Assembly: GCA_026770585.1 (NCBI GenBank)
Contig: MU646507.1
Span: 505,525 to 533,455 of the forward strand
DNA: 27,931 nt
Direction: 5' to 3'
Source of the DNA: Baffinella frigidus
Taxonomy: Eukaryota; Cryptophyceae; Cryptomonadales; Baffinellaceae
Both the position numbers and the translations under genes were made by a program. The notes beneath the pieces are model-generated. The model was not told where the DNA came from, searched no databases, and was given only the letters and a program-made list of their open reading frames with translations. Of this stretch, positions 108-27,931 are shown piece by piece (the first letter of the stretch is position 1; each line of letters opens with the position of its first letter).

Positions 108-167
108 GGCGGGCTGCTGCAGAGCGTGCGAGACCTCATCAAACGCGACGCCCCCCTCGAGGATAAG
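108..167 (+). CDS. Exon 1, copy a: first half of an ankyrin repeat
   Basis: Twenty codons after AAACAG and before GTCTCA. The peptide includes [15 protein letters not shown], the LL...GA-like second helix and turn of an ankyrin repeat. It joins in phase 0 to exon 2, whose [11 protein letters not shown] is the start of the next repeat. A second, nearly identical copy lies at 396-451. I cannot tell which is used. They could be alternatives, since each has an AG before it and a GT after it. Confidence 0.65.
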
Positions 168-3100
168 GTCTCACTCCACACAGCGGGCTACGAAGGGGTT
201 TTCCTGCGCTGAGAGCCCGAGTTTCCGTTACCTTATCCGTAGGAACCCCCCTATGTCCCTACGGGTTTCCTACAGTAGGGTCCTAGGTCTTGTCGCGTAG
301 GGGTTATTCAAAACCCCTTGGAAGTCCGCTGTGTGGTGTGCCAGGGGCGGGCGGCGCGACTGAGACCAAATAGATTGAGACAGCGCTAGGATTAGGGCTG
401 CTTCGGAGCGTGCGGGACCTGATCAAACGCGACGCGCCCCTCGAGGATAAGGTCTAGCTCTGCCCAAAGTTGACGGCTTTGTACCGCACACCCAGAATGT
501 TAACTTCAGAATAGTCTGCTAACCCGACTGAGAAGGATAAAGTGCGCACCTGGTGCGGTCTATTCCTCTCATTTCCTGCCTACCGTAGGGAATCACTTGT
601 TGACACTTGTTGACTTGTTCGAAAGAGGAATAAAAGGCGCAGAATTGAGGCGAGCTTCGAAAAGGATGTGGGTACTCGCATCAACACGAGGTCTTGGGAG
701 GGCCGTGAGACGTACCGAATGTGCGATCGTACCACCAGCAACCCGCTGCAGCTTATATCCGGATCGGGTACTGTAGTAATTTTCAGCTAAACCGAAGAAA
801 TCTCTTCGGTATCTCCCGTCAGCAATTCGAGGTCCCTAGGGTTTCCTACTGTAGGGTCATAGGAAAGATTGTTTTTCCAATAAAATACCCGAATCCTTGC
901 GAGTACCCGGTATAAGCTGCTACGGGTTGCTGGTGGTAGGAGGCGTAGGGCCTACCGTAGGGAATGGTGGTAACGAGGTAACAAGCTACTTCCGGGGTGG
1001 GCACCCTCAGGAGGGTAACAGCGATGACCCGCCGGGTCTGAACAGCTCCCCGTGTACCCCCCTCAGGACCCTGAGGGCAACACAGCGATGCGCTATGCTG
1101 CTTTCGGCACCTCTGACATCGCCTAGGACAAAAGGATGTGGGTACTCGCATCAACACGTGGTCTTGGAAGAGCCCACACGAGAATGCAAGAGGGGCCTAT
1201 TTAAACGCAAGATAATTTTGTATGTTGCATTTGTGTAGTAACTTTCATTGCCCTTGGAGCCACTGAAACCCTGGTTAGGCCGGTTACGAGGTTGGAACAC
1301 CTTATCCTGGTACAAGTTTTTCAACCCCACATGTAAATAGGCCCCTCTAGCATTCTCGAGTGGGCCGTCAGACGTACCGAACGCACGATCCTATCAGCCG
1401 CAGGAGCCACCGTAGGCGATACCGTATGCTAAAGAGCAGCTCCCCGGGGTTCGACTCGAAGATTCTGTCGTGATTTCGATCATTCTGTGGTGATCTCGAA
1501 GCTTATGTGGTAATCTCGAACATTCTGTGGTGATCTCGAACATTCTGTGGTGATCTCGATCATAGGCGATACCGTATGCTAAAGAGCAGCTCCCCAGGGT
1601 AGGACCAACCGTAGGGAATGGCCTGTGCGAAAAAGCAGCTCCCCTTGACCCCGCGCAGGATCCTGAGGGCAACACGGCGATGCATACTGCCGAAATGCTC
1701 AGAGCCGTAGGACCTACCGAACGCGCGATCCCATCAGTTGCAGGGCCGCACCTGATGCGGTCTATTCTTATCTCAGAAAACGAGTTCTGAAACTCGTTTT
1801 CTTAAGTTAATTTCTCTACAAATTTGTCAACTTATGCTGAGAGTAAAGAATAAGTTGACGAATTTGTAGGGGAGTTGACTTAAGAAAACGAGTTTCAGAA
1901 CTCGTTTTCTGAGATAAATTCGTCTCGTTTCCTGGGTACCGTATGGAAGTGCACATCCTGAAGACATTCTCCGATCCCGAGCAGGACCCTGAGGGCAACA
2001 CGGCGATGCACTATGCTGTGCTCTACGAGCGCGCCAAGGTCTCTCTCTCTCTCTCTCTCGTTCGCTCTCTCTCTCTCGTTCGCTCTCTCTCTCTCTCGCT
2101 CTCGCTCACTCTCTCTCTATCTATCTCCCTCTTTCTAGCTCTTTCTCTCTCTCTCTCGCTCGCTCTCTTTCTCTCGCTCGCTCGCTCTCGCTCGCTCTGT
2201 AGCTCTCTCTCTCTCGCTCGCTCGCGCTCTCTCTCTCTACCTCGCTCTCCCTCTCTCTCTCTCCCTCTCCCAAGAGGCCGCCCACACGCCTTCACTTAGC
2301 GACCGCTCGTTTTTCACTTAGCGCCTAACGAGGGATTCCGTGGCTCTACGAGCGCGCCAAGGTCTCTCTATCTCTCTCTTTCTCTCTCTTTCTCTCTCTT
2401 TCTCTCTCTCTCTCTCGCTCGCTCGCTCTCTCTCGCTCGCTCTCTCTCTCTCTCTCGCTCGCTCGCTCGCTCGCTCTCTCTCTAGCTCTCTCTCTCTCTC
2501 GCTCGCTCGCTCGCTCGCTCTCTCTCTATCTATCTCGCTCTCGCTCCCTCTCTCTCGAGAGGTCGCCCACACGCCTTCACTTAGCGCCCGCTCGTTTTCC
2601 ACTGAGCACCCTCCCCTCCCTGTCTTCATCCAGCGCTCGCTCCTTTTTCACCTAGTACCGCATGTGGCTTGTTCGCAGTGACGCCCACCAGCCCTCCGAG
2701 GTGGACCAAATCGAGGCTGGAAAAGCGCCTATTCCTCGGGCGGCACCTTCGAAAATGAATGTGCCGCCCGAGGAAAGGCTCCAACCAATCGTCGATTTGG
2801 TCCGTCTCACAAGGCTGCGACTGCTAACTGCGGGCGCAGAGCGCTACCTCTGGGGATGAACCCCACTTCACTGCCAGTCAGAATATTTCAGGGGTGTAGT
2901 AAAGACCCTTTCAAAACACAACAATGGGTCTGGGACCCACAATATTGACTTAAGGCTGTAGCTACAGGGGCAGTTAACTTAGTGGACTTGGGACGAAATT
3001 TCACGGCTGGCAGTGCACTTAGGCATAGCCGGGGTGACTTTGAAACCCCGCCGAGATTGGTTTCCGCTCTGGGACAAAACCTGGTTGACAAACCTGAAAC

Positions 3101-6100
3101 CGTGTGTCTCATTAGGTGGAGGAGGCGCTGATCGAGGCGGGGGCGGAGCGCTACCCGGTACACCCTTCACTCTCAACCCCAATCCCCAAACCCTGAACCC
3201 TGAACCCTAAACCCTGAACCATAAACCCTAAACCCTAACCCCAAACCCCAACCCCCACACCCCACACCCCAAACCCCACACCCCAAACTCCAAACCCCAA
3301 ACCCCAAACCCCAAACCCCAAACCCCAAACCCCAAACCCCAAACTCTAACCTAGGCCAACAACATCGGGGAGACGCCGGATGACACGAACCTGGAGCGGC
3401 TCCGGCAGCACGCGTTCCGCGAGCTCAGACAGGGCCAGAGCGGGTATCCCCAAACCCTACTAATCCACAACCCAAACCTAAAAAATAAAAAAATAAAATG
3501 AACCCGGCAGCGCGCGTTTCGCGAGCGGAGACAGGGCCAGAGCGGGTACCCCTCAACCCTACTCCCTAAACCTTGATTTTTCGAGCTCAAACAGGGTCAG
3601 AGCGGGTAACCATCCACCCTGCCCCCCAACCCTCCCAAAAAATGAACCCACCAGGGCTTCAGGATAGGAAACCCTGAACCCGCCAGCACGCGTTTCGCGA
3701 GCTGATGCAGGGCTTGAGCGGATACCCCTCAACTCTACCCCCCCCAGAAACAATCAACCCTAACCCACACAACAACAAAAACCAAAACGTGAACCCACCA
3801 GGGCGCGTTTCGCGAGCTCGCAAGGCTTGAGCGTGTAACCCGGAACCCTAATGCCTGATACCTTAACCCTAAACCCTTCAGGGAGCTCAGATAGAGGCAG
3901 AGCGGGTAACCCTATCAACCCCAATTCCTTATACCTTAACCCCAACCCTTCCCGAAGCCGAGGCAGGGGTTGAGTGGGTGAAACACTAAACCCTCATCGA
4001 CAACCCAAAAAAAAAAAATCTGAAAGCCTGAACCCACCAGCACGCGTTTGGCGAGCTCAGAAGGCTTGAGCGGGTAACCCTGAACCCTAATCTCTAATCC
4101 ACGAACCCTCACCCGCCGCCTAAACCTTAACCCCTAAACCCTGATCTCGAAACCCGAAACCCGAAACCCGAAACCCGAAACCCAAAACCCGAAACCCTTT
4201 CGTTCTCACACAATAACACGCAGCGACGTGGCATGCAAAACCCTAACCCACGTACCCTGCGCCAGGTTCGTGCTGTGGGTGATCGGCAAGCAGTGGATCC
4301 ACACACCCGGACCTTGAAACCGGAACCCGGAACCCGGAACACTGCTGCACCCTGCTGAACCCTAACCCCTGAACACCAACCTAGGTTCGTGCTGCGGGTG
4401 ATCGGCAAGCAGTGGATCCCTGCCGACCTTAGGGAAGGCGAGGAGGTACCCCCCCTAGCCCCAAACCCCAAACCCCGAACCCTGAGGGTTTAAGGTGCCG
4501 TCTTGCACTCTAAACCCTAATCCCTAATCCCTAATCCCTAAACCCTAAACACTGAACACGCAACCATAAACCATAAACCATAATCGTTAACCATAAACCC
4601 TAGGCGGCGGGGTGGGGGTTGGGGAGTAGGGATTGGGGTGGGGTGGTTCGTTCTGTGGGTGATCGGCAAGCAGTGGATCCCAGCCGACCTTCGGGAAGGT
4701 GAGGAGGTACACCCCCAAACCCTGAGGGGGAGTTTGAACCTTGAACAATAAACAATACACTATACACACTAAAAAATGAACACTCAACACGAACACTAAA
4801 CACTAAACAATAAAAAATAAAACAACACACCAAAATTTAAAATTTAAAAAACGCCATAAACACTTAAGGATTAGGGAGTAGGGATTGGGGTGGTGAGGTT
4901 CGTGCTGCGGTTGATCGGCAAGCAGTGGATCCCTGCCGACCTTCGGGAAGGCGAGGAGGTACTTCCAACACCCAAATGCTTCTCGCTTTACCCCAACCGC
5001 TCTCGTACGACCTTACCCAAAATAATAAATCCTAATTCCAAACCTAAACCACTTCCGCACCGTGATCTTACCCGAAAACTCTAAACCGTATCCCTAAACA
5101 ATCAACACTCAAAACTAATCACTAAACGCTTAACACTAAAAACAAAACTTTGAAAAAAAAATAACCCCGAAACTCGAAACCCGAAACCCGAAACCCAAAC
5201 CCCTAAACCTTACGCCCGAACCCCGCAGGGGCGGCTGCTGACGCACGGGCGGCGCATGTCGCTCACGGTCATCCGTCCGCGCACCCCTTCCAGGTCAAAC
5301 CCTACACCCTACACACCCTACACCCTACATCCCACACCCTACACCCTACATCCCACACCCTACACCCTACACCCTACACCCTACACCCTACACCCTACAC
5401 TGCAGCCCCCCCTACACAAAACATGAAAAACAGATGCTAGGAAAAAAGCTAAGCCCCACACCCTGAAAAAGGTCGCTGGTCAGCCGGCCGAGTCGCGGGG
5501 CAGGCGTGACTTGCCTCCTCCTCTTCCTCCTCCGCACCCCCCCCTATACAAAACATGACTAATCGATGCCGGGAATAACGCTAAACCCCACACCCTAAAA
5601 AAGGTCGCTGGGCAGCCGGCCGAGTAGCGTTAGCTCGTGATCAGACCGTACGGCTTTCGTTTTCTGTGGACCTTTTCACCTCCGGGCGCTGAACCCCACA
5701 CGCGCGCAGGTCGCTGGGCAGCCGGCCGAGTAGCGTTACAGTCCACCTACCCTAACGCAGGCTACCGTAACACATACTTACCCTCCACACATACTCCTTC
5801 GGCCGGCCCCCGATTTCCCCCTGCAAGGAAGTATGCCTGAAGGTTGTCGCCATAACGCATACCTACCCTCCACACATACTCAATCAGTCCGGCCCCGACG
5901 GGTATGTGTTAGGGTAGGTCCACTGTAGCTCATGATCAGGTCGTACGGCTTTCGTTTCCTGTGGACCGTTTCACCTCCGGGCGCTGAACCCCGCACCCTG
6001 TAACAGGTCGCTGGGCAGCCGGCCGAGTAGCGGGGCAGGAGTGACGCGCCTGCGCTCTACCTCCTCGGGCCGCCGGAGCAGATCCCCCCGCTCGGTAACT

Positions 6101-8109: not shown

Positions 8110-8143
<34 letters not shown>

Positions 8144-14100: not shown

Positions 14101-14207
14101 GAGATCTGCGGGGTGCCTCTTGAAGACCTCAAGCACGACGTCGAGGAGCAAGGTCGCCCTATATTTACATAAATATATAGATATTATATATATATACATA
14201 TTATATT

Positions 14208-14252
<45 letters not shown>

Positions 14253-14320
14253 GTGTATATATATATATATGCCTGAAGAAAGACGAGATCTGCGGGGTGC
14301 CTATATATATATATATATAT

Positions 14321-14377
<57 letters not shown>

Positions 14378-14399
14378 ATATATATATATNNNNNNNNNN

Positions 14400-14486
<87 letters not shown>

Positions 14487-14487
14487 G

Positions 14488-14559
<72 letters not shown>

Positions 14560-23500: not shown

Positions 23501-26500
23501 TCGTTTGCAGATAGTTGACCAAAAACTCTCCCTTCTGCGACTTTGCGCTCTCGGAGCGCGTGTGATGGGTGTTGAAGTGACCCCCCTGTACGCCGACGTA
23601 ACCCTTACCTTAACCCCAAACCCCACACCCCAAACCCTAACCCCCACACCCCAAACTCAAGATGTTCTGCGACTTTGCGCTCTCGGGGCGTGACAAGTCC
23701 CCGGCCGGACAGAGCGTTGACTCAGAGAGAGAGTTGACTGAAAAATCTGGCTCGTGCGCAGATGTTCTGCGACTTCGCGCTCTCGGAGCGGCTGGCCTCC
23801 TTCGACAAGTCCTCTTGCGTCTACGCCCCCCCTCAGGTTCCGAGCCCCACAATTTCCTTCTTCTTTATTACTCGCGAGCCTTAAGTTGAGTGATCCAGTA
23901 GTCTATGAGCCTTCTGAGACTCGACACAACGTACTGTTTACGCCCCCCCCCCTCAGGTTCCGAGCCCCACTCGACACCACTTACTGCAAAGTAACCCTCT
24001 CGACACCACTTACTGTTCCGAGCCCTACCCGACACAACTTACCCCACTCCACACAACTTACTAGCTCTGCCTAAGTAAAACTAGGCTCGTCATAAATGCA
24101 TTTTGATCGTCCTTTTGTGCTGGGGTTCCTGCTCTCAAGCCGTAAAACACGATGTTAGTCCACCCTCATAACCTGTCCTCTCGTGCGCAGCTGTCAACGC
24201 TCGTGGTGCCAGATCCCACCGTGCGTAATTCCTCCATGGGCATGCACACGCGCAAATCCTAAACCTTCCGAGTGGGGGCTCGTTCCGAGCCCAACTCGGA
24301 AGCGTCCAATCCAACACCTGTAAGGAAAAACTCCACCCGTTGGAACCCCCAAGCAACAAGGCAACAAGAGCTCAAAAGACACACCTTACTGTAAAGCGCC
24401 AAGGCGAGACAGGCCTACACTGCAGAGTTGCTTTACTGCCTCCCCCTCCCAGCAACCCTGCAACAGCCCGGTCAGCTAGCTGTCAATAGCCCGGTCAGCT
24501 AACCCCGGACGCGCGTGCGCAGCTGTCAGCGCGCGCGGTGCCCGGACAGTACGACGGTTAGCTGACCCCAGTCACAGCATACCGGTCAGCTGACTTCCTT
24601 ATGACGGTCGGCTGACCCTAACAACTTCAGTACGGCGGTTAGCTGACTCCCTTATGGCGGTTAGCTGCCCCTCATAACCTGAACGCAGCTGTCAGCGCTC
24701 GCGGTCCCGGACCGCACGGTGCCCCTGACACACTTGTCCGGGGTATGACGGCTGGCTGACTTCCGTATGACGGTTTCCGTATGACGGTTTCCGTTTGACG
24801 GTTAGCTGTCTTCCTTATGTCGGTTAGCTGGCTTCTTTATGTCGGTTAGCTGACTTCCTTCTGTCGACCCGTGTGCGCAGCTGTCAGCGCTCGCGGTGCC
24901 GGACCCGAGCGTCCGCAAGTCGTCAATGGGCATCAACACGCGCTTCGCGGTCCGTCCCCGCCCGCCACCCACAAACCACAAACCAAACCGTTACAAACCG
25001 TTACAAACCGTTACACACCGTTACAAACCGCCACCCTTTGTATAAACCGTCACCGCCACCCTGATAACAAGTCCGTTAAAAGTGGTTGTACCAGCACGAT
25101 TATAAATTTGTACCGGCGCGAGAGAAATTTGTACCACGGCAATGTTATATTATATATATTGTACGACACCCTTCTGCGCTCGCGGTGCGTTACCTCCCGC
25201 CACCCTCCTCCACTTTCTCTACGACCATCACTTGATTCTGGGAAAAAATACCAGATTTGTGCCAGCAACACCCCGAAAGTTAAGAGCCCGGCGCCGCAAC
25301 AATGCGGAATTGGTACCACGAAACCCTTTTGAAGCGAACCGTCGCGTTCTGAAATTCCCGCGTGTGATCTGGCGTGGCGAGAGGCCTCTCGTGTTTCATG
25401 TAGATACCTGAGCTGATTCCTAAGGCAACCGTTCCTGGAAAGGTAAAAGTCAACTGGGCGACAACTTGGGATGACACAGGTTATAAAAGCATTTTAGTTG
25501 ACCCATAAAATAATTTTAGCTGCCCCTTTGTACTGGAGTTTCTGCTCTAAAAGCATTGTACAGCGAGCCCAGGATTATTCAGGCGTCCTGGCGTGACCCT
25601 GATCCTCCAATTCCAACAACAGGTTGTGAACCCCTTTAATCCGCACGTCCTCGCAGCCACCTTCCAAAACACTAAAAGTGCCATTCTCGGTTCAAAAGAC
25701 CTATTTTAAGGAATTCTACGGATCAGGTAACGGAAACTTGGGCACTGAGTGCCCGAACATCCCTTCGTAGCACTCTGTGTGGTCTGAGGGGTGGTGGCTG
25801 AACCCCCCTCCCCCGAACAACAGGTTGTGAACCCCTTCGATCCGCGCGTCCTCGCAGCCACAGCACCAAATGGCTCCACCACCAGAGTCAGCGACTCGCC
25901 ACACCCGGGCAGCGCGCACACCACACATAGCACAGGTTACGACCCCCCCCCCCTGTGTCTGTACCTTTTCAGCGTGTTGTATGGGCGTATGGTTGGCGCT
26001 AGGGCTCTCCGCGCCCGGAGGCTAAAAGGTGCAGAAAAAAACGAAGGCGGTATTTACGTCTTAGCAAACGTTGTGTTTTTTGTGCTCGCCGCCACAGGGG
26101 CAAACGGCTCCGCCACTAGAGTCACAGCGATTTCCCGAACCAGGGCAGCACGCACAACTTGCATAGCACAGGTTACGACCCCCCCCCCTGACTCGAAGCT
26201 GGCCGTGGCCTTTTCGTAAATGATGTGTGTACGCTCAATGTGGGTTTTGCTCGAGCGTACATCCAACATGTGAGAAAGGTGCACGGTCAGCAACATCATA
26301 GGCTAACGTCCTGAAAATGGGGTAGTCAGGCATACGGCATTGCCTAGGACCTCCTACCGCAGGCCGAGGGATCGTAGGACCAAAAAGTCTCGGCCTACGA
26401 CAGGAGGTCCTGGGCAATGCCGTAGGCCTAACTACCCCATTTTCAGGCCGTTACCCTATTAAACAGCGCAGAATGGCACCCGGGCAGCACGCACACTACA

Positions 26501-27413
26501 CACAGCACAGGCTACGATCCTCTTCTTTGTCGGTACCTTTCAGCGTACTGTACAGGGGTACCGCGCTCATAAGAAAGTGCCACCCCTTAGGACCCTACAG
26601 TAGGACTATGCCTAGGGCCCTATGGTGGTCCTAGGGGGGGGGGGCGTTTCTTGTGAGCGAGGTACCTATGGGCGCATGTTTGGCGCTAGGGCTCCCCGCG
26701 CCCGGAGGCTAAAAGGTACAGAAAAAACGAAGACGGTGTTGATGTCTTGGCAAACGTTGCGTTTTTGTCCTCCAAATGGCTCCACCACCAGAGTCACCAC
26801 GCAAGAGTGTAAGACTGACCTGGGAAAACGAGTCAGTTCACACGGAATTTGTATCAACTTTCCGAAATTTTGATTTTTCTCGGCGGAGAATGTTGACTTA
26901 TGAACTTTTCAAAATAGCCAGATCTGGCTATTTCTCCTGCAGGCCACTCTGCCCTACACTCTTGCGTGGCAGCGACTGGCCCCACCCGGCCAGCACGCGC
27001 ACTATCCGCCTTATCCGGGGAAACCTGTTGTTCTTTCATTTCCTGGCAACGAACGTTACTACACAAATTCTTTAATATTACTAGTAAGAACGAATCGTGT
27101 AGTAATTTTCGGGCAAATTCCCCTCCAAATCACCTCTATAACCCTGAAAACCTGAACTCTAAACCCCAAACCTGTGCTATCCCCCACTCTGCAGGGCGCG
27201 GGAAATCCCCGTCAAAATCCCCGCCCGCCAAGTCCCCCCCCGGCTCCCCCCACTCCCGACGCAACTCCAACTCTCCGGAGCCCGGGTCGAAACGGGGGGA
27301 CTCTCCCGAACGACAGTCGAAGCGCGGGGTGTCGCCGGAACCGAGGAGGGGCAAGTCGCCGGAGGAGAAACCCTCGTCGAAGATGCGGTCGAGCCGCGAT
27401 GGGTGCATCGATG
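108..27413 (+). CDS. Split gene: ankyrin-repeat plus EF-hand protein, 29 exons, incomplete at both ends
   Basis: Overall gene model; the exons are listed separately. Seen: short + strand blocks bounded by AG and GT whose phases agree (for example exon 16 ends in phase 1 and exon 17 starts with two bases; exon 18 to 19 and 28 to 29 likewise), and whose peptides join into known folds. Exons 1+2 and 9+10+11 make ankyrin repeats; exons 20+21+22 make an EF-hand and a degenerate partner; exon 29 is a Ser-Pro/basic tail. Known: ankyrin repeats bind proteins and EF-hands bind calcium. Inferred: a calcium-responsive scaffold or adaptor. No start codon, stop codon, promoter or signal peptide is visible. 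The only phase clash is exon 7 to exon 8, so an exon or boundary is missing there. Where an exon has several copies I chose the most complete one with good splice sites. Confidence 0.78.
176..336. mobile_element. CCACACAGC-family MITE, copy 1 (161 bp)
   Basis: Ends are inverted repeats of about 26 bp: CCACACAGCGGGCTACGAAG on the left and the complement of CTTGGAAGTCCGCTGTGTGG on the right. The inside has GTTACCTTATCCGTAGGAAC and a CCTACAGTAGG palindrome. There is no coding capacity and no convincing target duplication. Three more full-length copies lie at 12510, 16886 and 21515. Confidence 0.85.
396..451 (+). CDS. Exon 1, copy b: alternative or duplicate ankyrin exon
   Basis: Encodes [18 protein letters not shown] with one substitution (Q to R) relative to copy a. 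Differences are mostly third-position (CTC to CTG, GCC to GCG), so it looks coding rather than decayed. AG at 394-395 precedes it and GTCTAG follows, a donor that itself begins a CTAGCTCTG repeat. It is nearer to exon 2 than copy a. The acceptor phase differs from copy a as drawn, and the upstream exon is outside the window. Confidence 0.55.
452..532. repeat. CTAGCTCTG...AAGTTGACG dispersed repeat, copy 1
   Basis: Begins CTAGCTCTGCCCAAAGTTGA and continues with TTTGTACCGC, GTTAACTTC and CAACCCGACTGAG-like blocks. The same order of blocks appears at 16657-16725 and 17131-17215 (+) and at about 13567-13680 (-). The 17131 copy ends in CAGAGCTAG, the complement of this start, so these look like degenerate terminal-inverted-repeat elements related to the 21723 and 27615 elements. 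Confidence 0.6.
1768..1917. mobile_element. Foldback MITE with ATTC target duplication (150 bp)
   Basis: Terminal inverted repeats start TTATCTCAGAAAACGAG and include CTACAAATTTGTCAACTTAT nearer the loop. ATTC stands on both sides (1764-1767 and 1918-1921). An uninterrupted paralogous site GCGGTCTATTC followed by CTCTCATTTCCTG exists at about 555-575, which fixes the element ends exactly. Confidence 0.88.
1985..2038 (+). CDS. Exon 2: ankyrin repeat start
   Basis: Eighteen codons, [18 protein letters not shown], between GAGCAG and GTCTCT. D..GNTA.HYA is the ankyrin consensus for the first helix. It joins exon 1 (...APLEDK) and exon 3 ([10 protein letters not shown]...) in phase 0, giving one uninterrupted ankyrin module across three exons. 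Partial copies of its start (1067, 1659) and end (2343) flank it. Confidence 0.8.
2039..3115 (+). repeat. Intron 2: CT/CGCT microsatellites, exon echoes, foldback
   Basis: 2039-2270 and 2362-2560 are TCTC/GCTC pyrimidine tracts. Between them 2343-2361 repeats the last bases of exon 2 with the GTCTCTC donor. After each tract comes the segment GCCCACACGCCTTCACTTAG (2279 and 2564). 2816-2853 is a decayed copy of exon 3 (CTGCGGGCGCAGAGCGCTAC-like). 2700-2806 is a foldback. The rest (2860-3110) shows nothing recognisable. Confidence 0.7.
2701..2806. mobile_element. Foldback element inside a decayed exon 3 echo
   Basis: GGACCAAATCGAGGCTGG near the left end pairs with the complement of CGTCGATTTGGTCC near the right, and CCTCGGGCGGCAC pairs with GTGCCGCCCGAGG around the loop. 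It separates a GAGGTGGA start-like piece from the GGGCGCAGAGCGCTAC piece of an exon 3 copy. The target duplication is not clear. Confidence 0.55.
3116..3157 (+). CDS. Exon 3: ankyrin repeat, second helix
   Basis: Fourteen codons, [14 protein letters not shown], after ATTAG and before GTACAC. The VE.LIEAGA motif is the ankyrin second helix and turn. Phase 0 on both sides. It continues into exon 4 ([10 protein letters not shown]), the next repeat's N..GETP turn. A decayed copy is at 2816-2853. Confidence 0.75.
3158..3354 (+). repeat. Intron 3: heptamer array from donor to acceptor
   Basis: Begins GTACACCCTTCACT and runs through CCCTGAA, CCCTAAA, CCACACC and nine or so CCCCAAA units to CTAACCTAG. 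Practically the whole 197-nt intron is 7-base repeat on the sense strand. Confidence 0.85.
3355..3443 (+). CDS. Exon 4: ankyrin end and charged helix
   Basis: Encodes [18 protein letters not shown] followed by [11 protein letters not shown], ending in phase 2 before GTATCC. NNIGETP fits an ankyrin turn; the rest is a basic helix. The phase-2 end matches exon 5, which begins with a single G completing a glycine codon (QSG-FVL). The last 25-40 nt are repeated seven times downstream with the donor. Confidence 0.75.
3444..4897 (+). repeat. Intron 4: seven exon 4 echoes, then three exon 5 echoes, in heptamers
   Basis: Exon 4 ends recur at 3505-3545, 3581-3605, 3681-3721, 3799-3834, 3879-3905, 3952-3977 and 4037-4073, each with GCGAGCTC and/or GAGCGG and, in six of seven, GT in the donor position (mostly GTAACC). 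Exon 5 starts recur at 4266-4300 (truncated), 4385-4445 (complete) and 4646-4706 (complete, but acceptor AG changed to TG). Heptamers (CCCTAAA, CCCGAAA) fill the rest; 4606-4645 and 4869-4893 are G-rich (GGGATTGGGG). Confidence 0.8.
4385..4445 (+). CDS. Exon 5, copy b: intact duplicate
   Basis: Same length (61 nt), phases and splice sites (CTAG before, GTACCC after) as the copy at 4898. The peptide [20 protein letters not shown] differs by one residue (V versus L at position 5). Because it enters in phase 2 and leaves in phase 0, it cannot be spliced in series with the other copy without a frameshift, so the two would have to be alternatives. Confidence 0.5.
4898..4958 (+). CDS. Exon 5: [10 protein letters not shown] exon
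   Basis: One base plus 20 codons after GTGAG and before GTACTT. The peptide has a hydrophobic strand [10 protein letters not shown] followed by [10 protein letters not shown]. It completes the split glycine from exon 4 and ends in phase 0. No family recognised. Chosen over 4385 because it is closest to exon 6. Confidence 0.65.
4959..5228 (+). repeat. Intron 5: AT-richer degenerate heptamers
   Basis: Degenerate CCTAAAC, CACTAAA and then CCCGAAA units up to the acceptor CCCCGCAG. Nothing else visible. Confidence 0.6.
5229..5293 (+). CDS. Exon 6: basic segment
   Basis: Encodes [20 protein letters not shown] and two further residues, ending in phase 2 before [20 protein letters not shown] resembles a basic Ser/Thr-containing linker. 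No echo copies seen, unusual for this gene. Confidence 0.6.
5294..6038 (+). repeat. Intron 6: CCCTACA array and tandem copies of the exon 7 acceptor region
   Basis: 5294-5400 is CCCTACA repeat. GTCGCTGGGCAGCCGGCCGA, which lies just before exon 7, is repeated at about 5472, 5603, 5711 and 6007; the first copy keeps GGGGCAG plus GCGTGAC (5504-5513). A segment reading GTACGGCTTTCGTTT...TTTCACCTCCGGGCGCTGAAC occurs at 5647 and 5941 and is the complement of repeats at 21165, 26000 and 26690. A TA-flanked element sits at 5739-5925. Confidence 0.7.
5739..5925. mobile_element. TA-flanked element, Tc1/mariner-like MITE (187 bp)
   Basis: Left end CAGTCCACCTACCCTAACGC, right end the complement of CAGTGGACCTACCCTAACAC. 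TA on both sides (5737-5738, 5926-5927). The copy at 5621-5645 (GAGTAGCGTTAGCTCGTGAT) is the same site without the insert, with a single TA. TA duplication and CAGT ends are typical of Tc1/mariner relatives. No transposase is encoded. Confidence 0.85.
6039..6094 (+). CDS. Exon 7: [18 protein letters not shown]
   Basis: One base plus 18 codons and one base, after GGGGCAG and before GTAACT. It completes the arginine codon from exon 6 (phase 2). Ends in phase 1. Proline-rich, no family recognised. Its 3' half with the GTAACT donor is echoed at 6239-6279 and, shorter, at 6626-6645. Confidence 0.6.
6188..6229. repeat. Perfect 42-bp palindrome
   Basis: Two 20-bp arms, TGATCACGTTTCCGTACGGA and its exact complement, around CA. 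It could extrude as a hairpin. No terminator role expected in this context. Confidence 0.9.
6655..7017 (+). repeat. TCC/TCA trinucleotide microsatellite
   Basis: CCTCCTCCT and TCATCATCA blocks alternate in about five higher-order units. It opens long frames on both strands (poly-Pro/His on +, poly-Glu/Asp on -), but the composition is that of a simple repeat in an intron. Confidence 0.9.
7449..7608. mobile_element. TAATCC-family MITE with GATC duplication (160 bp)
   Basis: Starts TAATCCCGCCGAGTATTCAT and ends with the complement of TCATCCAGACGAGTATTCAT; the arms also share GATTTTGGTGTATCTT. GATC stands on both sides (7445-7448, 7609-7612). The empty site CCTGCGATCGACACAGCGG exists at about 7714-7732. 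Same family as 15463 and 22600. Confidence 0.87.
7956..8076 (+). CDS. Exon 8: Lys/Asp/Ser-rich linker
   Basis: After CCCCCAG, one base and 40 codons to GTTATT. The peptide includes [20 protein letters not shown] and then [19 protein letters not shown]. Hydrophilic, no family recognised. It leaves in phase 0, matching exon 9. It may begin further upstream, because the frame is open to about 7911. Direct and inverted fragments follow in intron 8. Confidence 0.6.
8077..8815 (+). repeat. Intron 8: direct and inverted echoes of exons 8 and 9
   Basis: 8108-8142 is CT repeat. 8365-8398 repeats the exon 8 end (TCGGACCTGGACGGGGGTAC) with a GT donor. On the minus strand 8318-8362 and about 8440-8480 read VDKMSSPGK-like, inverted versions of exon 8's VDKFSSPGK. 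8519-8583 is a diverged exon 9 copy ([14 protein letters not shown]). 8266-8300 and 8625-8660 are an inverted pair around CCGCACGGCGATGCTCCCGA. 8761-8812 is heptamer. Confidence 0.65.
8816..8905 (+). CDS. Exon 9: ankyrin repeat start
   Basis: Thirty codons between TAGCAG and GTAGAC, phase 0. The peptide ends [18 protein letters not shown], the ankyrin motif G.TLL..A...G. It continues directly into exon 10 ([17 protein letters not shown]). A diverged copy lies at 8519-8583. Confidence 0.82.
8906..9158 (+). repeat. Intron 9: mixed heptamers and TGATAACCTG repeats
   Basis: GACCCCCAACCCC at the donor, then a G-rich stretch 8981-9012 (GGGTTTTGGGGTTTAGGG), then GCTGATAACCTG repeated four times (about 9079-9148) before the acceptor GTGGCAG. 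Confidence 0.65.
9159..9209 (+). CDS. Exon 10: ankyrin second helix
   Basis: Seventeen codons, [17 protein letters not shown], after GGCAG and before GTCCAA, phase 0 both sides. VVK.L....ADV.A is the ankyrin second helix and turn and completes the module begun in exon 9. Its end is echoed at 9341-9371 (with donor) and 9456-9482 (donor lost). Confidence 0.82.
9210..10415 (+). repeat. Intron 10: exon 10 and exon 11 echoes, heptamers, palindrome, CT tracts
   Basis: Exon 10 echoes at 9341 and 9456; each is followed by heptamers and a GCGTATTCGATTAGACAA-like segment (9413, 9726). 9500-9720 is CCCTAAA/CCCTACC array. 9875-9912 is a palindrome, next to a CCACGCAGGGCTCTT end (9914-9936) of the 18967 element family. 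CT tracts at 10046-10105 and 10265-10410. Exon 11's start with its CAG is echoed at 10209-10266. Confidence 0.7.
9875..9912. repeat. Perfect 38-bp palindrome
   Basis: GGTCTACGCTAGGGGGAGG followed at once by its exact complement. A hairpin of 19 pairs with no loop, directly followed by an element-like end. Confidence 0.9.
10416..10505 (+). CDS. Exon 11: ankyrin repeat
   Basis: Thirty codons after CATCAG and before GTCTAG, phase 0. The peptide starts [20 protein letters not shown] and ends [27 protein letters not shown] is a good ankyrin repeat following exon 10. The exon or parts of it recur at 10209-10266, 10613-10675, 10821-10860 and 11041-11060. Confidence 0.82.
10506..11243 (+). repeat. 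Intron 11: exon 11 end echoes, MITE fragment, exon 12 start echo
   Basis: 10509-10612 is a fragment of the CCACACAGC element (CCTACGGTAGG, GGGGGGTTCCTACGGA, CGGAAACTCGGGCA). Exon 11 ends follow at 10613-10675 (complete to CCAG with GTCGCC), 10821-10860 and 11041-11060. 11081-11109 is exon 12's start after ACAG. Between them lie unique-looking stretches without recognisable coding. Confidence 0.68.
11244..11300 (+). CDS. Exon 12: [19 protein letters not shown]
   Basis: Nineteen codons after CAACAG, before GTTTAA, phase 0. Probably a helix joining the ankyrin region to the EF-hand region (continues SFL-VFCAQG). Echoed in part at 11081 (start) and at 11582-11593 (AAGCGCTTCCTG with GT). Confidence 0.7.
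11301..11963 (+). repeat. Intron 12: long CCCTAAA array, CCAAAAA variants, exon 13 echo
   Basis: 11301-11580 is almost pure CCCTAAA with CCCCAAA. 11610-11700 is CACCAAA/ACCAAAA. 11732-11813 is a diverged copy of exon 13's start after TGCGCAG, with the peptide frame broken by a G run at 11784. GGCTGCTAAGTGG repeats fill 11870-11920. Confidence 0.78.
11964..12074 (+). CDS. Exon 13: EF-hand-like segment
   Basis: Thirty-seven codons after TGCGCAG, before GTGCGC, phase 0. The peptide runs from [19 protein letters not shown] to [27 protein letters not shown] is the end of a calcium-loop plus F-helix of an EF-hand. The loop itself lacks the usual D.D.DG spacing, so calcium binding here is doubtful. 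Calmodulin-family context is supported by the canonical hand in exon 20. Confidence 0.75.
12075..12434 (+). repeat. Intron 13: 20-bp GATCTCGAACATTCTGTGGT tandem repeat
   Basis: 12292-12428 has about seven imperfect units of the form TGATCTCGAACATTCTGTGC, running to the acceptor GTGCAG. The same satellite occurs in intron 1 (1457-1565). 12207-12241 contains a CCCGATTTAGT...ACTAAATCGGG hairpin. Confidence 0.78.
12435..12485 (+). CDS. Exon 14: [17 protein letters not shown]
   Basis: Seventeen codons, CAG before and GTGTGC after, phase 0. Leads into VFQKVL of exon 15. A diverged copy with the same donor lies at 12832-12874, beyond an inserted element. Confidence 0.68.
12510..12671. mobile_element. 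CCACACAGC-family MITE, copy 2 (162 bp)
   Basis: Same ends and interior as copy 1 (TTCCGTTACCTTATCCGTAG, CCTACCGTAGGGTC). Inserted between exon 14 and its echo. No clear target duplication. Confidence 0.87.
12972..13040. mobile_element. Small foldback with TTACTACACA ends (69 bp)
   Basis: CAATGAAAATTACTACACA on the left pairs with the complement of TGTGTAGTAAATTTCATTG on the right. The interior has CTTTGATATTACTAGTAA, shared with the copy at 27045-27116. A lone end is at about 1230-1250. Confidence 0.75.
13201..13260 (+). CDS. Exon 15: [20 protein letters not shown]
   Basis: Twenty codons, AAACAG before and GTGAGA after, phase 0. The echo at 13471-13497 keeps the last 27 bases (one nucleotide change plus codon-level changes) and the GTGCGCC donor; another is at 13690-13724. 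No family recognised. Confidence 0.7.
13261..13879 (+). repeat. Intron 15: heptamers with two exon 15 end echoes and an inverted dispersed repeat
   Basis: CCCTAAA, CCCTAGA and CCCTGAA arrays at 13266-13440, 13505-13540 and 13727-13870. Exon 15 echoes at 13471-13497 and 13690-13724. 13567-13680 is the AAGTTGACG dispersed repeat in minus orientation. Confidence 0.78.
13880..13976 (+). CDS. Exon 16: [20 protein letters not shown] exon
   Basis: Thirty-two codons plus one base, after CGAACAG and before GTCGCC. It starts [20 protein letters not shown] and ends [10 protein letters not shown]. Leaves in phase 1, matching the two-base start of exon 17. Its 3' two thirds are repeated at 14087-14152, 14271-14302 and 14635-14699. 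The last copy has TAA where exon 16 has CAA. Cys-rich helix, no family recognised. Confidence 0.72.
14160..14634. repeat. TA-rich microsatellite with an assembly gap
   Basis: Long AT dinucleotide runs with an N run around 14390-14399, then GTGTGTG and TATG tetranucleotides. Array length is unreliable across the gap. Confidence 0.95.
14722..14749. repeat. Perfect 28-bp palindrome
   Basis: AAAAACACGATAAA and its exact complement, adjacent. Just after the last exon 16 echo. Confidence 0.85.
15009..15097 (+). CDS. Exon 17: basic segment [16 protein letters not shown]
   Basis: Two bases plus 29 codons after GAAACAG and before GTATGT. The peptide has [19 protein letters not shown] then [10 protein letters not shown]. 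It completes the glycine from exon 16 (Q-G-E) and ends in phase 0. No family recognised. Confidence 0.72.
15210..15267 (-). pseudogene. Inverted copy of exon 18
   Basis: On the minus strand it reads [19 protein letters not shown], against [19 protein letters not shown] in the real exon. Several of the base differences are silent (GGG/GGC, GAG/GAA, ACC/ACG). It brings its own ACCCTGAG acceptor context. No donor follows in the same place. Confidence 0.75.
15463..15616. mobile_element. TAATCC-family MITE with GTCT duplication (154 bp)
   Basis: Left end TAATCCGGGGGCATGTTTAA; right end the complement of TCATCCAGGAACATATTTAA. GTCT on both sides (15459-15462, 15617-15620). Same length as the 22600 copy, in the opposite orientation. 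Confidence 0.88.
15671..15743 (+). CDS. Exon 18: [19 protein letters not shown] exon
   Basis: Twenty-four codons plus one base, after CCCTGAG and before GTCTTG. It leaves in phase 1, matching exon 19's two-base start (H-G-V). Parts are repeated inverted (15210, 15865) and direct (15943, 16108). Amphipathic, no family recognised. Confidence 0.7.
15744..16558 (+). repeat. Intron 18: inverted and direct exon 18 echoes, G-rich heptamers, AT tracts, hairpins
   Basis: 15865-15891 is the exon 18 start inverted; 15943-16000 its remainder direct, with donor GTCTGG; 16108-16132 the last 25 bases, with GTCCCG. G-rich heptamers (TTTAGGG, GTGTAGG) at 15835-15860, 15890-15932 and 16020-16105. Hairpins at 16351-16368 (TCGAACCC/GGGTTCGA) and 16367-16398 (GAGTAGTGT...ACACTACTC). 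TATG/TA tracts at 16440-16530. Confidence 0.72.
16559..16641 (+). CDS. Exon 19: [20 protein letters not shown] exon
   Basis: Two bases plus 27 codons after GATGCAG, before GTCCCT. After [20 protein letters not shown] it ends RVPQYQM. Phase 1 in, phase 0 out. The last 30 bases with the donor are repeated at 16726-16755 and, diverged, at 17206-17235. No family recognised. Confidence 0.75.
16642..17924 (+). repeat. Intron 19: exon 19 end echoes, MITE, then exon 20 start echoes in a TTACGTCCATTTACGGAAT satellite
   Basis: The first half repeats exon 19's end (16726, 17206), each preceded by the AAGTTGACG dispersed repeat (16657, 17131), with a CCACACAGC element at 16886-17046. 17300-17924 is a ~18-20-bp satellite TTACGTCCATTTACGGAAT. 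Exon 20's first 42 nt with acceptor recur at 17408-17449, 17590-17631 and 17779-17820; each stops at exactly the same base (AAGAAG), then returns to satellite. Confidence 0.85.
16886..17046. mobile_element. CCACACAGC-family MITE, copy 3 (161 bp)
   Basis: Ends CCACACAGCAGGCTACGAAG and the complement of TTCCAAGTCCGCTGTGTTG. The segment TCACCCTTTCCGTGCCTC before it recurs at 17241 without the insert, followed by TTATCTAGGGG, so the flank is duplicated. No clean target duplication. Confidence 0.87.
17925..18041 (+). CDS. Exon 20: canonical EF-hand
   Basis: Thirty-nine codons after TGTGCAG, before GTGCGA, phase 0. It begins [14 protein letters not shown] and carries [20 protein letters not shown]. 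The 12-residue loop (codons 26-37, nucleotides 18000-18035) has D at 1 and 3, S at 5, G at 6, L at 8 and E at 12, the pattern of a calcium-binding EF-hand. The F-helix continues into exon 21. The first 14 codons are echoed three times upstream. Echo 1 has K to T and echo 2 has P to T; echo 3 matches in protein. Confidence 0.88.
18271..18417. mobile_element. GACCACGCAGGG-family element, degenerate copy
   Basis: CCCCACGCAGGGCTGGAGGG then GGTATTCAAAAGTCATTTTT; near the right end GGAATACCCTACCCAAGGG. Same layout as 18967-19120, including CGGCTCCAAGAACGAGC twice. The right terminus has decayed. Confidence 0.7.
18967..19120. mobile_element. GACCACGCAGGG-family MITE (154 bp)
   Basis: Ends GACCACGCAGGGCTCTTGGG and its complement with one mismatch zone (CGAAGAGCCCTGCGTGGTC). 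GGTATTCAAAA and GGAATACCCC sit inside the arms. No clear target duplication. A lone end occurs at 9914-9936. Confidence 0.82.
19475..19519 (+). CDS. Exon 21: EF-hand F-helix [15 protein letters not shown]
   Basis: Fifteen codons, TTTGCAG before and GTAACC after, phase 0. Acidic/basic helix continuing from exon 20 ([12 protein letters not shown]) into exon 22 (VFRLLEG), as expected for the linker between paired EF-hands. Confidence 0.8.
19520..19747 (+). repeat. Intron 21: heptamer array from donor to acceptor
   Basis: GTAACCCCTACACCCTACACC through CCCAAAA and CACCAAA to AAACCGCAG. Essentially the whole 228-nt intron is sense-strand heptamer, with the donor GTAACCC itself in register. Confidence 0.87.
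19748..19801 (+). CDS. Exon 22: degenerate second EF-hand
   Basis: Eighteen codons, [18 protein letters not shown], phase 0. F..L...SS..V.LSDFI is EF-hand-like (loop end and F-helix) but lacks the acidic loop residues, so it is probably a structural partner of the exon 20 hand. The last 19 bases with GTCTGA are echoed at 19934-19952. Confidence 0.78.
19802..20744 (+). repeat. Intron 22: CCAACTGACGCCCTATCCA satellite with three exon 23 start echoes
   Basis: 19835-19930 heptamers, then the exon 22 end echo (19934-19952). From 20207 a ~20-bp satellite CCCAACTGACGCCCTATCCA. Exon 23's first ~55 nt, with acceptor, recur at 20152-20206, 20337-20392 and 20560-20615, each breaking into satellite after AAGAA(G/C)TC. 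Confidence 0.87.
20745..20840 (+). CDS. Exon 23: [17 protein letters not shown] exon
   Basis: Thirty-two codons, CTCAG before and GTACGT after, phase 0. [20 protein letters not shown] is followed by [12 protein letters not shown]. Hydrophilic basic stretch then an amphipathic helix. It is the only complete copy: three 5' echoes lie upstream and one 3' echo (21255-21319) downstream. Confidence 0.8.
21515..21674. mobile_element. CCACACAGC-family MITE, copy 4 (160 bp, reversed)
   Basis: Opposite orientation to copies 1-3: CCACAAAGCGGACTTCAAAG on the left and GTAGCCTGCTGTGTG at the right; interior CCGACGGTAGGCAACC, GTAACGGAAACTCGGGC. Confidence 0.85.
21723..21919. mobile_element. CTAGCTCTG-family MITE with GCATT duplication (197 bp)
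   Basis: Ends CTAGCTCTGTCCCAGTTCAA and its exact complement. GCATT on both sides (21718-21722, 21920-21924). The interior has a tandem CCCCATGAAATTCACCTGTG and GAAATTTCGGGGGGGGCACT. Second member at 27615-27769. Confidence 0.9.
22051..22119 (+). CDS. Exon 24: [20 protein letters not shown] exon
   Basis: Twenty-three codons, GATCAG before and GTCTGA after, phase 0. It ends GLFGMMHK. The last 18-34 bases with the donor are repeated four times downstream. No family recognised. Confidence 0.78.
22600..22753. mobile_element. TAATCC-family MITE with GACC duplication (154 bp)
   Basis: Left TCATCCGGGAACATGTTTAA, right the complement of TAATCCGGGGACAGGTTTAA. GACC on both sides (22596-22599, 22754-22757). 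The interior GGAGTTAGACAAAGGT-like block matches the 15463 copy in reverse. Confidence 0.88.
22919..23062. mobile_element. Foldback MITE with TCATCTCG ends (144 bp)
   Basis: TCATCTCGAAAGATGACTGA and the complement of its right end share TCATCTCG and CTGAATCAGTTCC. The interior has CCTAATTAAATTTACT, also present inside the 22600 element, so the two may be related. Flanks ATAC and ACAC are only a possible 4-bp duplication. Confidence 0.72.
23179..23350. mobile_element. Foldback MITE with TA duplication (172 bp)
   Basis: Arms start GAGCGCTTGCGGGAAAACTT and extend about 60 bp with few mismatches (GTCCGATTcAACGAGAAAT). TA on both sides (23177-23178, 23351-23352). The host repeat CCCATCTCGGGTTCTG...GAAATCGCACTA occurs on both sides; its second copy (to 23394) is uninterrupted. 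Confidence 0.85.
23762..23836 (+). CDS. Exon 25: [18 protein letters not shown] exon
   Basis: Twenty-five codons after GTGCGCAG, before GTTCCG, phase 0. It ends CVYAPPQ. The start is echoed three times upstream, the end once downstream (23938-23956, with GTTCCGAGCCCCAC). No family recognised. Confidence 0.75.
23837..24880 (+). repeat. Intron 25: exon 25 end echo, diverged exon 26 copy, GGTTAGCTGACTTCCTTA satellite
   Basis: 23938-23956 echoes exon 25's end. CTCGACACCACTTACTG repeats fill 23970-24060. 24191-24253 is a nearly full-length diverged exon 26 copy. 24460-24870 is a TACGGCGGTTAGCTGACTTC satellite carrying exon 26 starts at 24523-24546 and 24689-24713, each after GCAG. Confidence 0.82.
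24191..24253 (+). pseudogene. Diverged near-full copy of exon 26
   Basis: Reads [20 protein letters not shown] against [20 protein letters not shown] in exon 26. By hand I count about seven silent and six amino-acid changes over 21 codons, more silent change than decay alone would give. GTGCGCAG acceptor intact; the donor region (CGCAAATCCTAA) is lost, leaving an in-frame stop. Confidence 0.72.
24881..24949 (+). CDS. Exon 26: [20 protein letters not shown] exon
   Basis: Twenty-three codons after GTGCGCAG and before GTCCGT, phase 0. It ends RFA. Echoed upstream at 24191, 24523 and 24689, and a fragment (TGCGCTCGCGGTGC) downstream at 25181. No family recognised. Confidence 0.75.
24950..25412 (+). 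repeat. Intron 26: CCGTTACAAA repeat and unassigned sequence
   Basis: 24975-25060 has ACAAACCGTT units of 10 bases, a different period from the usual heptamer. 25080-25410 includes AAATTTGTACC repeats and an AT-rich patch. No gene or clear element seen. Confidence 0.55.
25413..25442 (+). CDS. Exon 27: [10 protein letters not shown] (tentative micro-exon)
   Basis: Ten codons between CTGAG and GTAAAA, phase 0 on both sides, so it can be included or skipped without changing frame. Short length and no echo make this the weakest exon call. Confidence 0.4.
25443..25823 (+). repeat. Intron 27: exon 28 start echo and MITE fragment
   Basis: 25623-25662 repeats exon 28's start after CAACAG ([13 protein letters not shown]). 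25711-25782 is a fragment of the CCACACAGC element in reverse orientation (GGTAACGGAAACTTGGGCAC, CCTTCGTAGCACTCTGTGTGG). The remainder is unassigned. Confidence 0.7.
25824..25935 (+). CDS. Exon 28: [20 protein letters not shown] exon
   Basis: Thirty-seven codons plus one base, CAACAG before and GTTACG after. It starts [20 protein letters not shown] and ends [15 protein letters not shown]. Phase 1 out matches exon 29's two-base start (T-G-R). The end with the GTTACGACCCCCC donor is repeated at 26085-26171, and with GCTACG at 26476-26510. Low-complexity Ser/Thr/His/Pro, likely disordered. Confidence 0.72.
26300..26457. mobile_element. Long-arm foldback element (158 bp)
   Basis: Arms of about 70 bp: AGGCTAACGTCCTGAAAATG on the left, the complement of AGGGTAACGGCCTGAAAATG on the right; both arms continue with GGGTAG and GGCATTGCC and end at CTCGGCC by the loop. 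AT on both sides may be a 2-bp duplication. A half copy is at 21415-21457. Confidence 0.78.
27045..27116. mobile_element. Small foldback with TTACTACACA ends, copy 2
   Basis: GGCAACGAACGTTACTACACA pairs imperfectly with the complement of GTGTAGTAATTTTCGGGC; interior TTTAATATTACTAGTAAGAA matches 12972-13040. Confidence 0.7.
27195..27413 (+). CDS. Exon 29: Ser-Pro/Lys/Arg-rich tail
   Basis: The longest exon: two bases, 72 codons and one base, from TCTGCAG to GTTCCC. The peptide repeats KSP and KRG.SPE motifs ([42 protein letters not shown]), then [13 protein letters not shown]. Regular SP motifs between basic residues look like proline-directed kinase sites in a disordered tail. Not a classical RS splicing domain. 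The end (GGTCGAGCCGCG...TGCATCGATG with GTTTCC) is echoed at 27787-27813. Leaves in phase 1, so the gene continues beyond the window. Confidence 0.78.
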
Positions 27414-27931
27414 GTTCCCCCTATTCCGAACCCCGAACCCCAAATCCCGAACCCCAAACCCCGAACCCCGAACCCCAAATCCCAAGTTCCAAACCCCAAA
27501 TCCCAAACCCCAAATTCCGAGCCCCGTACCCCCACCCCCGAACCCCGAACCTGCACCAGAAACCAGAAACCAGAAACCCGAAACTGGACCAGTTTTCCTC
27601 CCCGAGCCAGCATCCTAGCTCTGTCCCACTTGGATTTGGGCTCCCCATAAATTTGCCCCCTCCAAAATTTTACGGGTAAATTTCAGGGGGGGGGGGGTCA
27701 AAATTCGCCTGTAAAATTGGGGGGGGGGGCGAATTTTTTGGGAGCCCAAATCAAGTGGCACAGAGCTAGGCATCTTTGCAGTCCACGGTCGAGCCGCGCT
27801 GGGTGCATCGATGGTTTCCCCAATCCCGAACCCTGAACCCCCAATCCCGAACCCCGAACCCCAAATCCCGAACCCCAAATCCCGAACCCCGAACCCCAAA
27901 TCCCGAACCCCAAACCCCAAATCCCGAACCC
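27414..27931 (+). repeat. Intron 29 (incomplete): CCCGAACCCCAAAT arrays, MITE, exon 29 echo
   Basis: 27425-27590 and 27818-27931 are CCCCGAA/CCCCAAAT repeats on the sense strand. Between them lie an element (27615-27769) and the exon 29 end echo (27787-27813). Confidence 0.85.
27615..27769. mobile_element. CTAGCTCTG-family MITE with GCATC duplication (155 bp)
   Basis: Left CTAGCTCTGTCCCACTTGGA, right the complement of CTAGCTCTGTGCCACTTGAT; GGGCTCCC inside both arms. GCATC on both sides (27610-27614, 27770-27774). The G-run/AAATTT interior resembles 21723-21919 in layout, although the sequence differs. Confidence 0.9.

Follow-up and report, generated by a model that had tools for sequence, protein, structure and literature searches.

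The final 27,931 bases of contig MU646507.1 of the cryptophyte Baffinella frigidus (assembly GCA_026770585.1; 382 Mb in 1,364 contigs), here called the window, hold one plus-strand gene whose 28 exons, 42–220 nucleotides (nt) in size, run from 111 to 27414. AG precedes exons 2–28 and GT follows exons 1–27, and the joined exons encode a stop-free protein of 776 amino acids; a preliminary description made from the sequence had counted 29 exons. A Pfam scan of the protein returned ankyrin and EF-hand models only; it marks out ankyrin repeats and one region of EF-hand type, whose models score under their curated cut-offs. Searching with 740 amino acids of this protein gave two homologues, one of 1,157 amino acids (43% identity, 92% of the query covered), which backs the exon model, and one of 1,244 amino acids (40% identity, 99% covered).

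Copies of exon edges in the adjoining introns

Most exons of this gene have partial copies of themselves nearby. We call these copies echoes, defined as matches outside the own exon in a Basic Local Alignment Search Tool (BLAST) search of each exon against the window at E ≤ 0.01. The search returned 60 echo matches, 58 on the plus strand and two inverted, from 24 of the 28 exons (1, 2, 4, 5, 7–20 and 23–28). All 60 lay within about 1.04 kb of their own exon, in the adjoining introns or downstream of exon 28, and the same search found no echo elsewhere in the window. Identity of the direct echoes to their exons was graded, from 77 to 100%. Exons 3, 21 and 22 gave weak matches only, and exon 6 gave none even with weak matches included. 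The exons and echoes are as follows.

111..167 (+), exon 1; start not resolved, no AG in front
395..451 (+), whole echo of exon 1, 91% identity
1985..2038 (+), exon 2
1067..1100 and 1659..1684 (+), 5′ echoes of exon 2
2343..2361 (+), 3′ echo of exon 2
3116..3157 (+), exon 3; weak match only, 2830–2848
3355..3443 (+), exon 4
3504–3545, 3582–3605, 3680–3721, 3877–3905 and 4038–4061 (+), five 3′-part echoes of exon 4 found by BLAST
4385..4445 (+), exon 5
4266..4300 (+), 5′ echo of exon 5
4646..4706 (92%) and 4898..4958 (97%) (+), whole echoes of exon 5
5229..5293 (+), exon 6; no echo found
6007..6094 (+), exon 7
5472–5532, 5604–5629 and 5710–5735 (+), three 5′ echoes of exon 7; tandem units with intron flanks alike, an inverted-repeat element being inserted after the last (by eye)
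6238..6279 (+), 3′ echo of exon 7
7909..8076 (+), exon 8
8362..8398 (+), 3′ echo of exon 8
8816..8905 (+), exon 9
8517..8581 (+), 5′-part echo of exon 9
9159..9209 (+), exon 10
9342–9371 and 9458–9482 (+), two 3′ echoes of exon 10
10416..10505 (+), exon 11
10209..10266 (+), 5′ echo of exon 11; four differences, all synonymous
10613–10675 (+), 3′ echo of exon 11
10835–10866 (+), internal echo of exon 11
11244..11300 (+), exon 12
11081..11106 (+), 5′ echo of exon 12
11964..12074 (+), exon 13
11736..11789 (+), 5′ echo of exon 13; six differences, all synonymous, with a 1-nt shift adjoining
12435..12485 (+), exon 14
12838..12874 (+), 3′ echo of exon 14
13201..13260 (+), exon 15
13472–13497 and 13683–13723 (+), two 3′ echoes of exon 15
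13880..13976 (+), exon 16
14088–14152, 14272–14302 (internal) and 14636–14699 (+), three downstream echoes of exon 16
15009..15097 (+), exon 17
14904..14927 (+), 5′ echo of exon 17
15674..15743 (+), exon 18
15211..15261 (−), inverted echo of exon 18, inside a 107-nt inverted copy (15211–15317) spanning the acceptor
15849..15886 (−), second inverted echo of exon 18; 5′ edge, on the downstream side
15938–16000 and 16108–16130 (+), two 3′ echoes of exon 18
16559..16641 (+), exon 19
16726..16755 (+), 3′ echo of exon 19
17925..18041 (+), exon 20 (EF-hand region)
17408–17449, 17590–17631 and 17779–17820 (+), three 5′ echoes of exon 20 with one common inner junction
18422..18441 (+), internal echo of exon 20
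19475..19519 (+), exon 21; weak match only
19748..19801 (+), exon 22; weak 3′ match at 19934–19952
20745..20840 (+), exon 23
20154–20207, 20337–20392 and 20560–20615 (+), three 5′ echoes of exon 23 with a common inner junction, a minisatellite lying between them
21254..21319 (+), 3′ echo of exon 23
22051..22119 (+), exon 24
22207–22246, 22350–22380 and 22543–22575 (+), three 3′ echoes of exon 24 found by BLAST
23762..23836 (+), exon 25
23439–23470, 23533–23558 and 23662–23690 (+), three 5′ echoes of exon 25
24881..24949 (+), exon 26
24191–24253, 24523–24542 and 24689–24713 (+), three 5′ echoes of exon 26
25824..25935 (+), exon 27
25623..25660 (+), 5′ echo of exon 27
26082–26171, 26477–26510 and, both internal, 26772–26796 and 26970–27002 (+), four downstream echoes of exon 27
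27195..27414 (+), exon 28; end set by eye, GT starting at the last base, true end perhaps 27413
27786..27814 (+), 3′-part echo of exon 28, downstream

The preliminary description had reported such copies, splice site included, at nearly every exon end, and its examples held up. The starts of exon 20 (17408, 17590, 17779) and exon 23 (20152, aligned here from 20154; 20337; 20560) each recur three times, as it had stated. Its seven copies of the exon 4 end were recovered as five by BLAST with the other two seen by eye only, and its four copies of the exon 24 end as three by BLAST (22207, 22350, 22543), the fourth, near 22447, being visible by eye. When exon edges and introns were divided into tiles, a local direct copy was found for 36 of 55 exon-edge tiles and for 90 of 352 non-repetitive intron tiles. 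Against the reversed window, any match at all was obtained for 3 of the 55 edge tiles and 27 of the 352 intron tiles, which rejects chance as the source of the echoes.

The geometry of the echoes was strict. (Three gapped direct matches are included in the polarity, order, flank, splice-site and frame counts.) Upstream of their exons, the 24 direct echoes comprised 23 five-prime edges and one internal piece; downstream, the 34 direct echoes comprised 25 three-prime edges, three whole exons and six internal pieces. All 48 truncated direct edge echoes therefore sat on the side of their own edge, 5′ edges upstream and 3′ edges downstream, and in all eight introns that hold both kinds the 3′ echoes of the upstream exon came before the 5′ echoes of the downstream exon. 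Between successive units, the intron flanks were recognisably alike in 21 of 52 pairs, compared with 10 of 312 mismatched controls, although this likeness is partly simple repeat and was not demonstrable in the other 31 pairs. The echoes of exon 20, and likewise those of exon 23, have one inner junction per array in common. Flank and edge thus form units placed head to tail, as in local tandem duplication across a splice junction. The 5′-upstream and 3′-downstream geometry arises because duplicating a segment across one junction regenerates a complete exon, and such duplications are tolerated because the whole exon survives. Two echoes of exon 18 are inverted and belong to inverted copies that span the exon 18 acceptor; plain unequal crossing-over between direct repeats does not make these, whereas template switching can. 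Thus, the echoes are a real feature of this gene: local duplications that straddle splice junctions and have been repeated at most exons. Repeated duplication around junctions and template switching, two of the three origins put forward in the preliminary description, both find support in these data, the latter also from three inverted matches at two other loci described below.

Most echoes carry their splice site with them, as had been noted. Among edge or whole echoes, 21 of 25 retained AG and 24 of 27 retained GT (45 of 52 together), a share of 87% that is close to the expectation from mean identity (162 differences over 2,112 sites; 0.923 squared, 0.85). Identity to the true intron flank drops to about half within 3–4 nt of the junction. 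A weight matrix could not separate echo sites from true sites (donors, p = 0.15; acceptors, p = 0.77). The donors of exons 1–27 hold almost no information beyond G^GT (^ marking the junction), and the signal sits on the exon side: the last exon position is G in 26 of 27 cases and is preceded by A in 19 of 27, so that a 3′ echo often carries AG^GT. The first exon base is G in 21 of 27 exons. We then put 44 of the 45 retained echo sites, one at a time, in place of the true site. None gave an open in-frame exon (18 were in frame, none of them open, and 26 shifted the frame), and a productive decoy role is therefore unsupported. As long intron insertions are expected to close the frame, this result argues against productive use only; a regulatory role of the echo sites without consequence for the protein is still compatible with it. 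Of the three origins proposed earlier, selected decoy splice sites are the least supported. By eye, inner echo ends were not consistently GT or AG, and cryptic splicing at these ends was rejected as a source.

The introns also hold other repeats. A family of inverted repeats of ~160 bp has members at 176–334, 12510–12672, 16886–17044 and 21515–21673 and partial members at 10531–10612 and 25714–25788. Palindromic elements at 1768–1917 and 26298–26459 have 71-nt arms that are 92% and 89% complementary. Telomere-like heptamers (AACCCTA, AACCCCA, AACCCGA) and intron-specific minisatellites occupy many introns (for example, 3175–3344, 11305–11581 and 14927–15006), and a long AT dinucleotide array with a run of 10 N lies between exon 16 echoes at 14160–14625. 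Both homologues bear a Pfam RCC1 accession; the part of the gene in the window is without it. Intron 11 contains an inverted fragment that resembles an RCC1 repeat (11143–11208, minus strand), with tblastn E values of 0.001–0.15 against the C-terminal part of homologues P0001 and P0002, which comes after the region aligned to the window exons. Rfam returned nothing at gathering score, and a pattern search for relatives of a 187-amino-acid piece gave 61 matches in genome contigs and 7 in viral contigs, none of which was confirmed.

Mainly synonymous divergence, in this gene and in others

The strongest anomaly, which the preliminary description had not picked up, concerns how echoes differ from their exons. 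Codon counts were made on the 55 ungapped direct echoes, leaving out the three gapped and two inverted matches. Differences fell at codon positions one, two and three in the ratio 29:29:104, and 102 were synonymous and 60 non-synonymous, with 26% synonymous expected at random. Fourfold sites differed in 66 of 364 cases (18%) and zerofold sites in 51 of 1,386 (3.7%), a ratio of 4.9; taking one echo per exon for the 24 exons gave 5.7 (bootstrap 3.5–9.7). A constrained exon paired with a freely decaying echo would give a ratio of at most about 2. Base composition was rejected as the cause of the third-position changes, given that base-specific zerofold rates predict 14.7 fourfold changes, or about 29 if both sides change, against the 66 observed.

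Comparing echoes with one another gave a similar picture. Across 38 pairs of echoes of the same exon, 27% of fourfold and 6.8% of zerofold sites differed, and parsimony over 15 exons assigned to the echo branches 0.135 changes per fourfold and 0.034 per zerofold site (ratio 4.1, bootstrap 2.65–8.1). For echoes of at least 40 nt (six exons), the corresponding values were 0.145 and 0.022. A neutrally decaying pseudo-exon should change at the same rate in every codon position of its own branch, which is not what the echo branches show. The first inverted echo of exon 18 differed at 1:0:6 by codon position. An annotation-free count of three-base mismatch rhythm gave 207 for all window repeats, with 201 the highest of 300 randomisations, and 110 for intron–intron repeats, with 116 the highest. 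The echo branches look coding, although the tested sites are unusable productively where they now stand. Such synonymous-dominated divergence is a truly odd property that ordinary decay of junk copies does not predict.

The pattern had been presented as one of a single gene, which proved too narrow. We sampled twenty 10-kb stretches at fixed places in the genome, seven of which had at least 1.5 kb readable; all seven contained local direct repeats, at 0.13–2.4 pairs per kb (the window has 105 pairs in 27.9 kb). One of the seven, L021, alone showed a three-base mismatch rhythm above all 300 randomisations. It was chosen for this rhythm, was the only one of the seven in which exons were sought, and seems to contain a gene on the minus strand whose 3′ edges are repeated. 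Searching for DEAD helicases gave 18 matches; we took five stretches, each on a different contig, that together include 7 of these matches. In loci L027, L026 and L021, with exons set by eye, we found 24 echo matches, 21 direct and three inverted, the latter in two loci. Fifteen of 16 direct edge echoes lay on the predicted side, GT was kept in 12 of 12 and AG in 4 of 5, and differences by codon position were 15:8:56. Fourfold sites differed in 50 of 158 cases (32%) and zerofold sites in 19 of 505 (3.8%), a ratio of 8.4. For L028 and L029, where the query was the hidden Markov model (HMM) match alone and exact exon edges were not set, three further echoes were detected, each on the expected side; L030, a long open frame, showed none. 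With echoes in five of the six further coding loci examined, copying of this kind extends to other genes and is not confined to that of the window.

Origin of the echoes

The data show that segments across a splice junction, each made up of intron flank and the first or last ~20–90 nt of an exon, have been duplicated locally and repeatedly at most exons of this gene. Every such duplication spares the complete exon and adds to the neighbouring intron, which lengthens, an incomplete edge together with its splice site. To account for the divergence, we propose that the echoes are edges of other functional versions of the exon in question, most likely alleles, that were retired recently relative to the age of those versions and were transferred by unequal, misaligned exchange or by template switching. 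If introns turn over fast, exon edges would be the most stable homologous stretch for exchange, and the echoes may be tolerated by-products rather than selected decoys. We regard this account, of junction-straddling duplication with echoes as retired edges of other functional exon versions, as evenly poised between right and wrong.

Several observations weigh against it. The weakest point is the implied synonymous difference of 18–32%, which is very high for alleles. Among the scored candidates in the readable assembly, exon-20 DNA and a 214-amino-acid piece matched only the window locus, no second copy of the gene being found there, so that alleles or paralogues as donors are postulated, with alleles the more probable of the two. 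In the window, the branch leading to the exon is short (0.021 at fourfold and 0.004 at zerofold sites, 15 exons), whereas plain allele sampling predicts equal branches; this estimate is shortened by the finding of echoes through similarity to the exon, and in two other loci the exon branch is long but uncertain (0.167 at fourfold sites, interval 0.025–0.274, five exons). Across the 55 echoes, distance from the exon correlated only weakly with divergence (rho 0.19, p = 0.17). Codon bias is absent from the second inverted echo of exon 18 (3:3:4), and the annotation-free rhythm of exon-touching window repeats (97) equals, without exceeding, the top value among 300 randomisations (97). Of the five exons in L026, three had no echo, one had an echo on the wrong side, the single exception to polarity among the three loci, and one on the predicted side. 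A placement simulation of random tandem duplication, in which exon-breaking events were rejected (five settings, three runs each; polarity present by construction), yielded 25–90 echoes on 13–17 exons, compared with the 24 exons observed. It also gave local copies for 61–83% of intron tiles and 30–51% of edge tiles, compared with 26% and 65% observed, and we therefore do not credit the enrichment to plain random duplication. Either copies of intron sequence are lost faster than copies of exon edges, in keeping with the rapid drop of identity beyond the exon part, or duplication occurs preferentially at exon edges.

The plainest rival is serial tandem duplication, in which each echo is a snapshot of the exon on the same chromosome that then decays neutrally in the intron. 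It accounts for polarity, order, kept splice sites and flank likeness, and agrees with the finding that, on the same side of an exon, the farther echo was more diverged in 25 pairs and less diverged in 10, with three ties. However, it predicts a fourfold-to-zerofold ratio of no more than about 2, far from those of the window and the three other loci, and equal rates on the echo branches, where fourfold sites changed about four times as fast; private changes of the nearer echoes, too, fell at 4:8:22 by codon position. We consider it rather unlikely. An assembly artefact, with different haplotypes or strains strung together, would bring mainly synonymous divergence and dissimilar introns if two functional haplotypes were involved, and concatenated alternative introns could yield the correct polarity; the assembly is a draft, with 10 N in the window. 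By contrast, the single novel exon-to-intron junction in each of the exon 20 and exon 23 arrays, the later insertion in an exon 7 unit, the inverted echoes in the window and at other loci, and the graded identity of the direct echoes all argue against an artefact, and the sole N run sits in the AT array rather than at an echo join. A simple zipper-type misassembly was rejected, because it would put the 5′ echoes of the following exon ahead of the 3′ echoes of the preceding exon, an order seen in 0 of 8 introns. Overall, an artefact seems unlikely.

Selection on the echoes in place, as decoy or recursive splice sites (an AG^GT ratchet) or as alternatively translated sequence, would suit the kept AG and GT, splice scores not distinguishable from true ones, the low zerofold divergence on echo branches and the frequent AG^GT of 3′ echoes. 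Yet none of the substituted sites gave an open in-frame exon, the exon 13 echo has a 1-nt shift, inner echo ends are not consistently canonical, and an echo in L027 alters, by eye, a residue of the PTREL motif. A ratchet, moreover, requires AG^GT and not 20–90 coding nucleotides. Constraint in place is, in our judgement, improbable. Insertion of introners or other mobile elements, as the maker of introns and copies alike, could draw on the recurrence of the ~160-bp inverted-repeat family in several window introns and on comparable stretches noticed by eye in L021, L026 and L027. However, introners place the same mobile sequence at many unrelated introns, each insertion forming the intron with a short target duplication, and here 60 of 60 echoes lie beside their own exon; no element common to the echoes was noticed in a search limited to the ~160-bp family. 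This locality led us to reject an introner origin, which is largely refuted and hardly credible.

Relation to known systems and significance

Among the literature matches listed, no title or abstract describes such exon-edge echoes. Of the published cases considered, intron gain by tandem duplication and exon-array shuffling in Tetrahymena come nearest, each differing in defining features. Intron gain by tandem duplication likewise involves local duplication of exonic sequence with a splice motif and an intronic copy (PMC2891723), but there one duplication within an exon makes a new intron, whose ends would, by our deduction, echo both neighbours, whereas in the present case introns that already exist take up many incomplete edges from the exon closest to them, with fixed polarity and in several genes. 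From its mechanism, we deduced that intron gain by proto-splice-site duplication should leave an intron start that repeats the downstream exon start and an intron end that repeats the upstream exon end; this was rejected, with own-side polarity in 48 of 48 echoes and the opposite order in all eight introns. In Tetrahymena, arrays of 90-bp leucine-rich repeat (LRR) exons have been attributed to unequal crossing over and exon shuffling (PMC6564038). As here, this is a protist in which exon/intron units vary in number by proposed unequal exchange and intron lengths change; there, however, whole exons multiply within one gene family, while here mostly edges are copied, stay intronic and belong to unrelated genes. 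The introner elements of Amoebophrya, another protist, are repeated families with direct repeats of 3–5 nt and inverted repeats at splice sites (PMC7789003). They resemble our case in the repeats at exon/intron boundaries and the inverted repeats in introns, but the echoes, about 17–90 nt long, are copies of the very exon next to them.

Mutually exclusive tandem exons are complete exon copies with both splice sites. The whole-exon copies of exon 1 (one) and exon 5 (two) are similar to these, but they make up only 3 of the 58 direct echoes, and the other window echoes are truncated.

A broader reading, which we put forward tentatively and think doubtful, is that exon edges turn over continuously and genome-wide through misaligned exchange between very diverged functional versions, and that this is the main source of intron growth. 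Each intron would then preserve, locally, a record of the synonymous variation in the exons on either side. If the echoes are real, their formation would be a widespread route of intron growth in which junction-straddling duplications leave readable traces. The synonymous-dominated divergence of non-coding copies would point either to extreme divergence of functional versions combined with frequent exchange, or to an unknown process. Since such copies fill genes with splice sites indistinguishable from true sites by weight matrix, splice-site choice under a very weak donor signal would also become directly testable.

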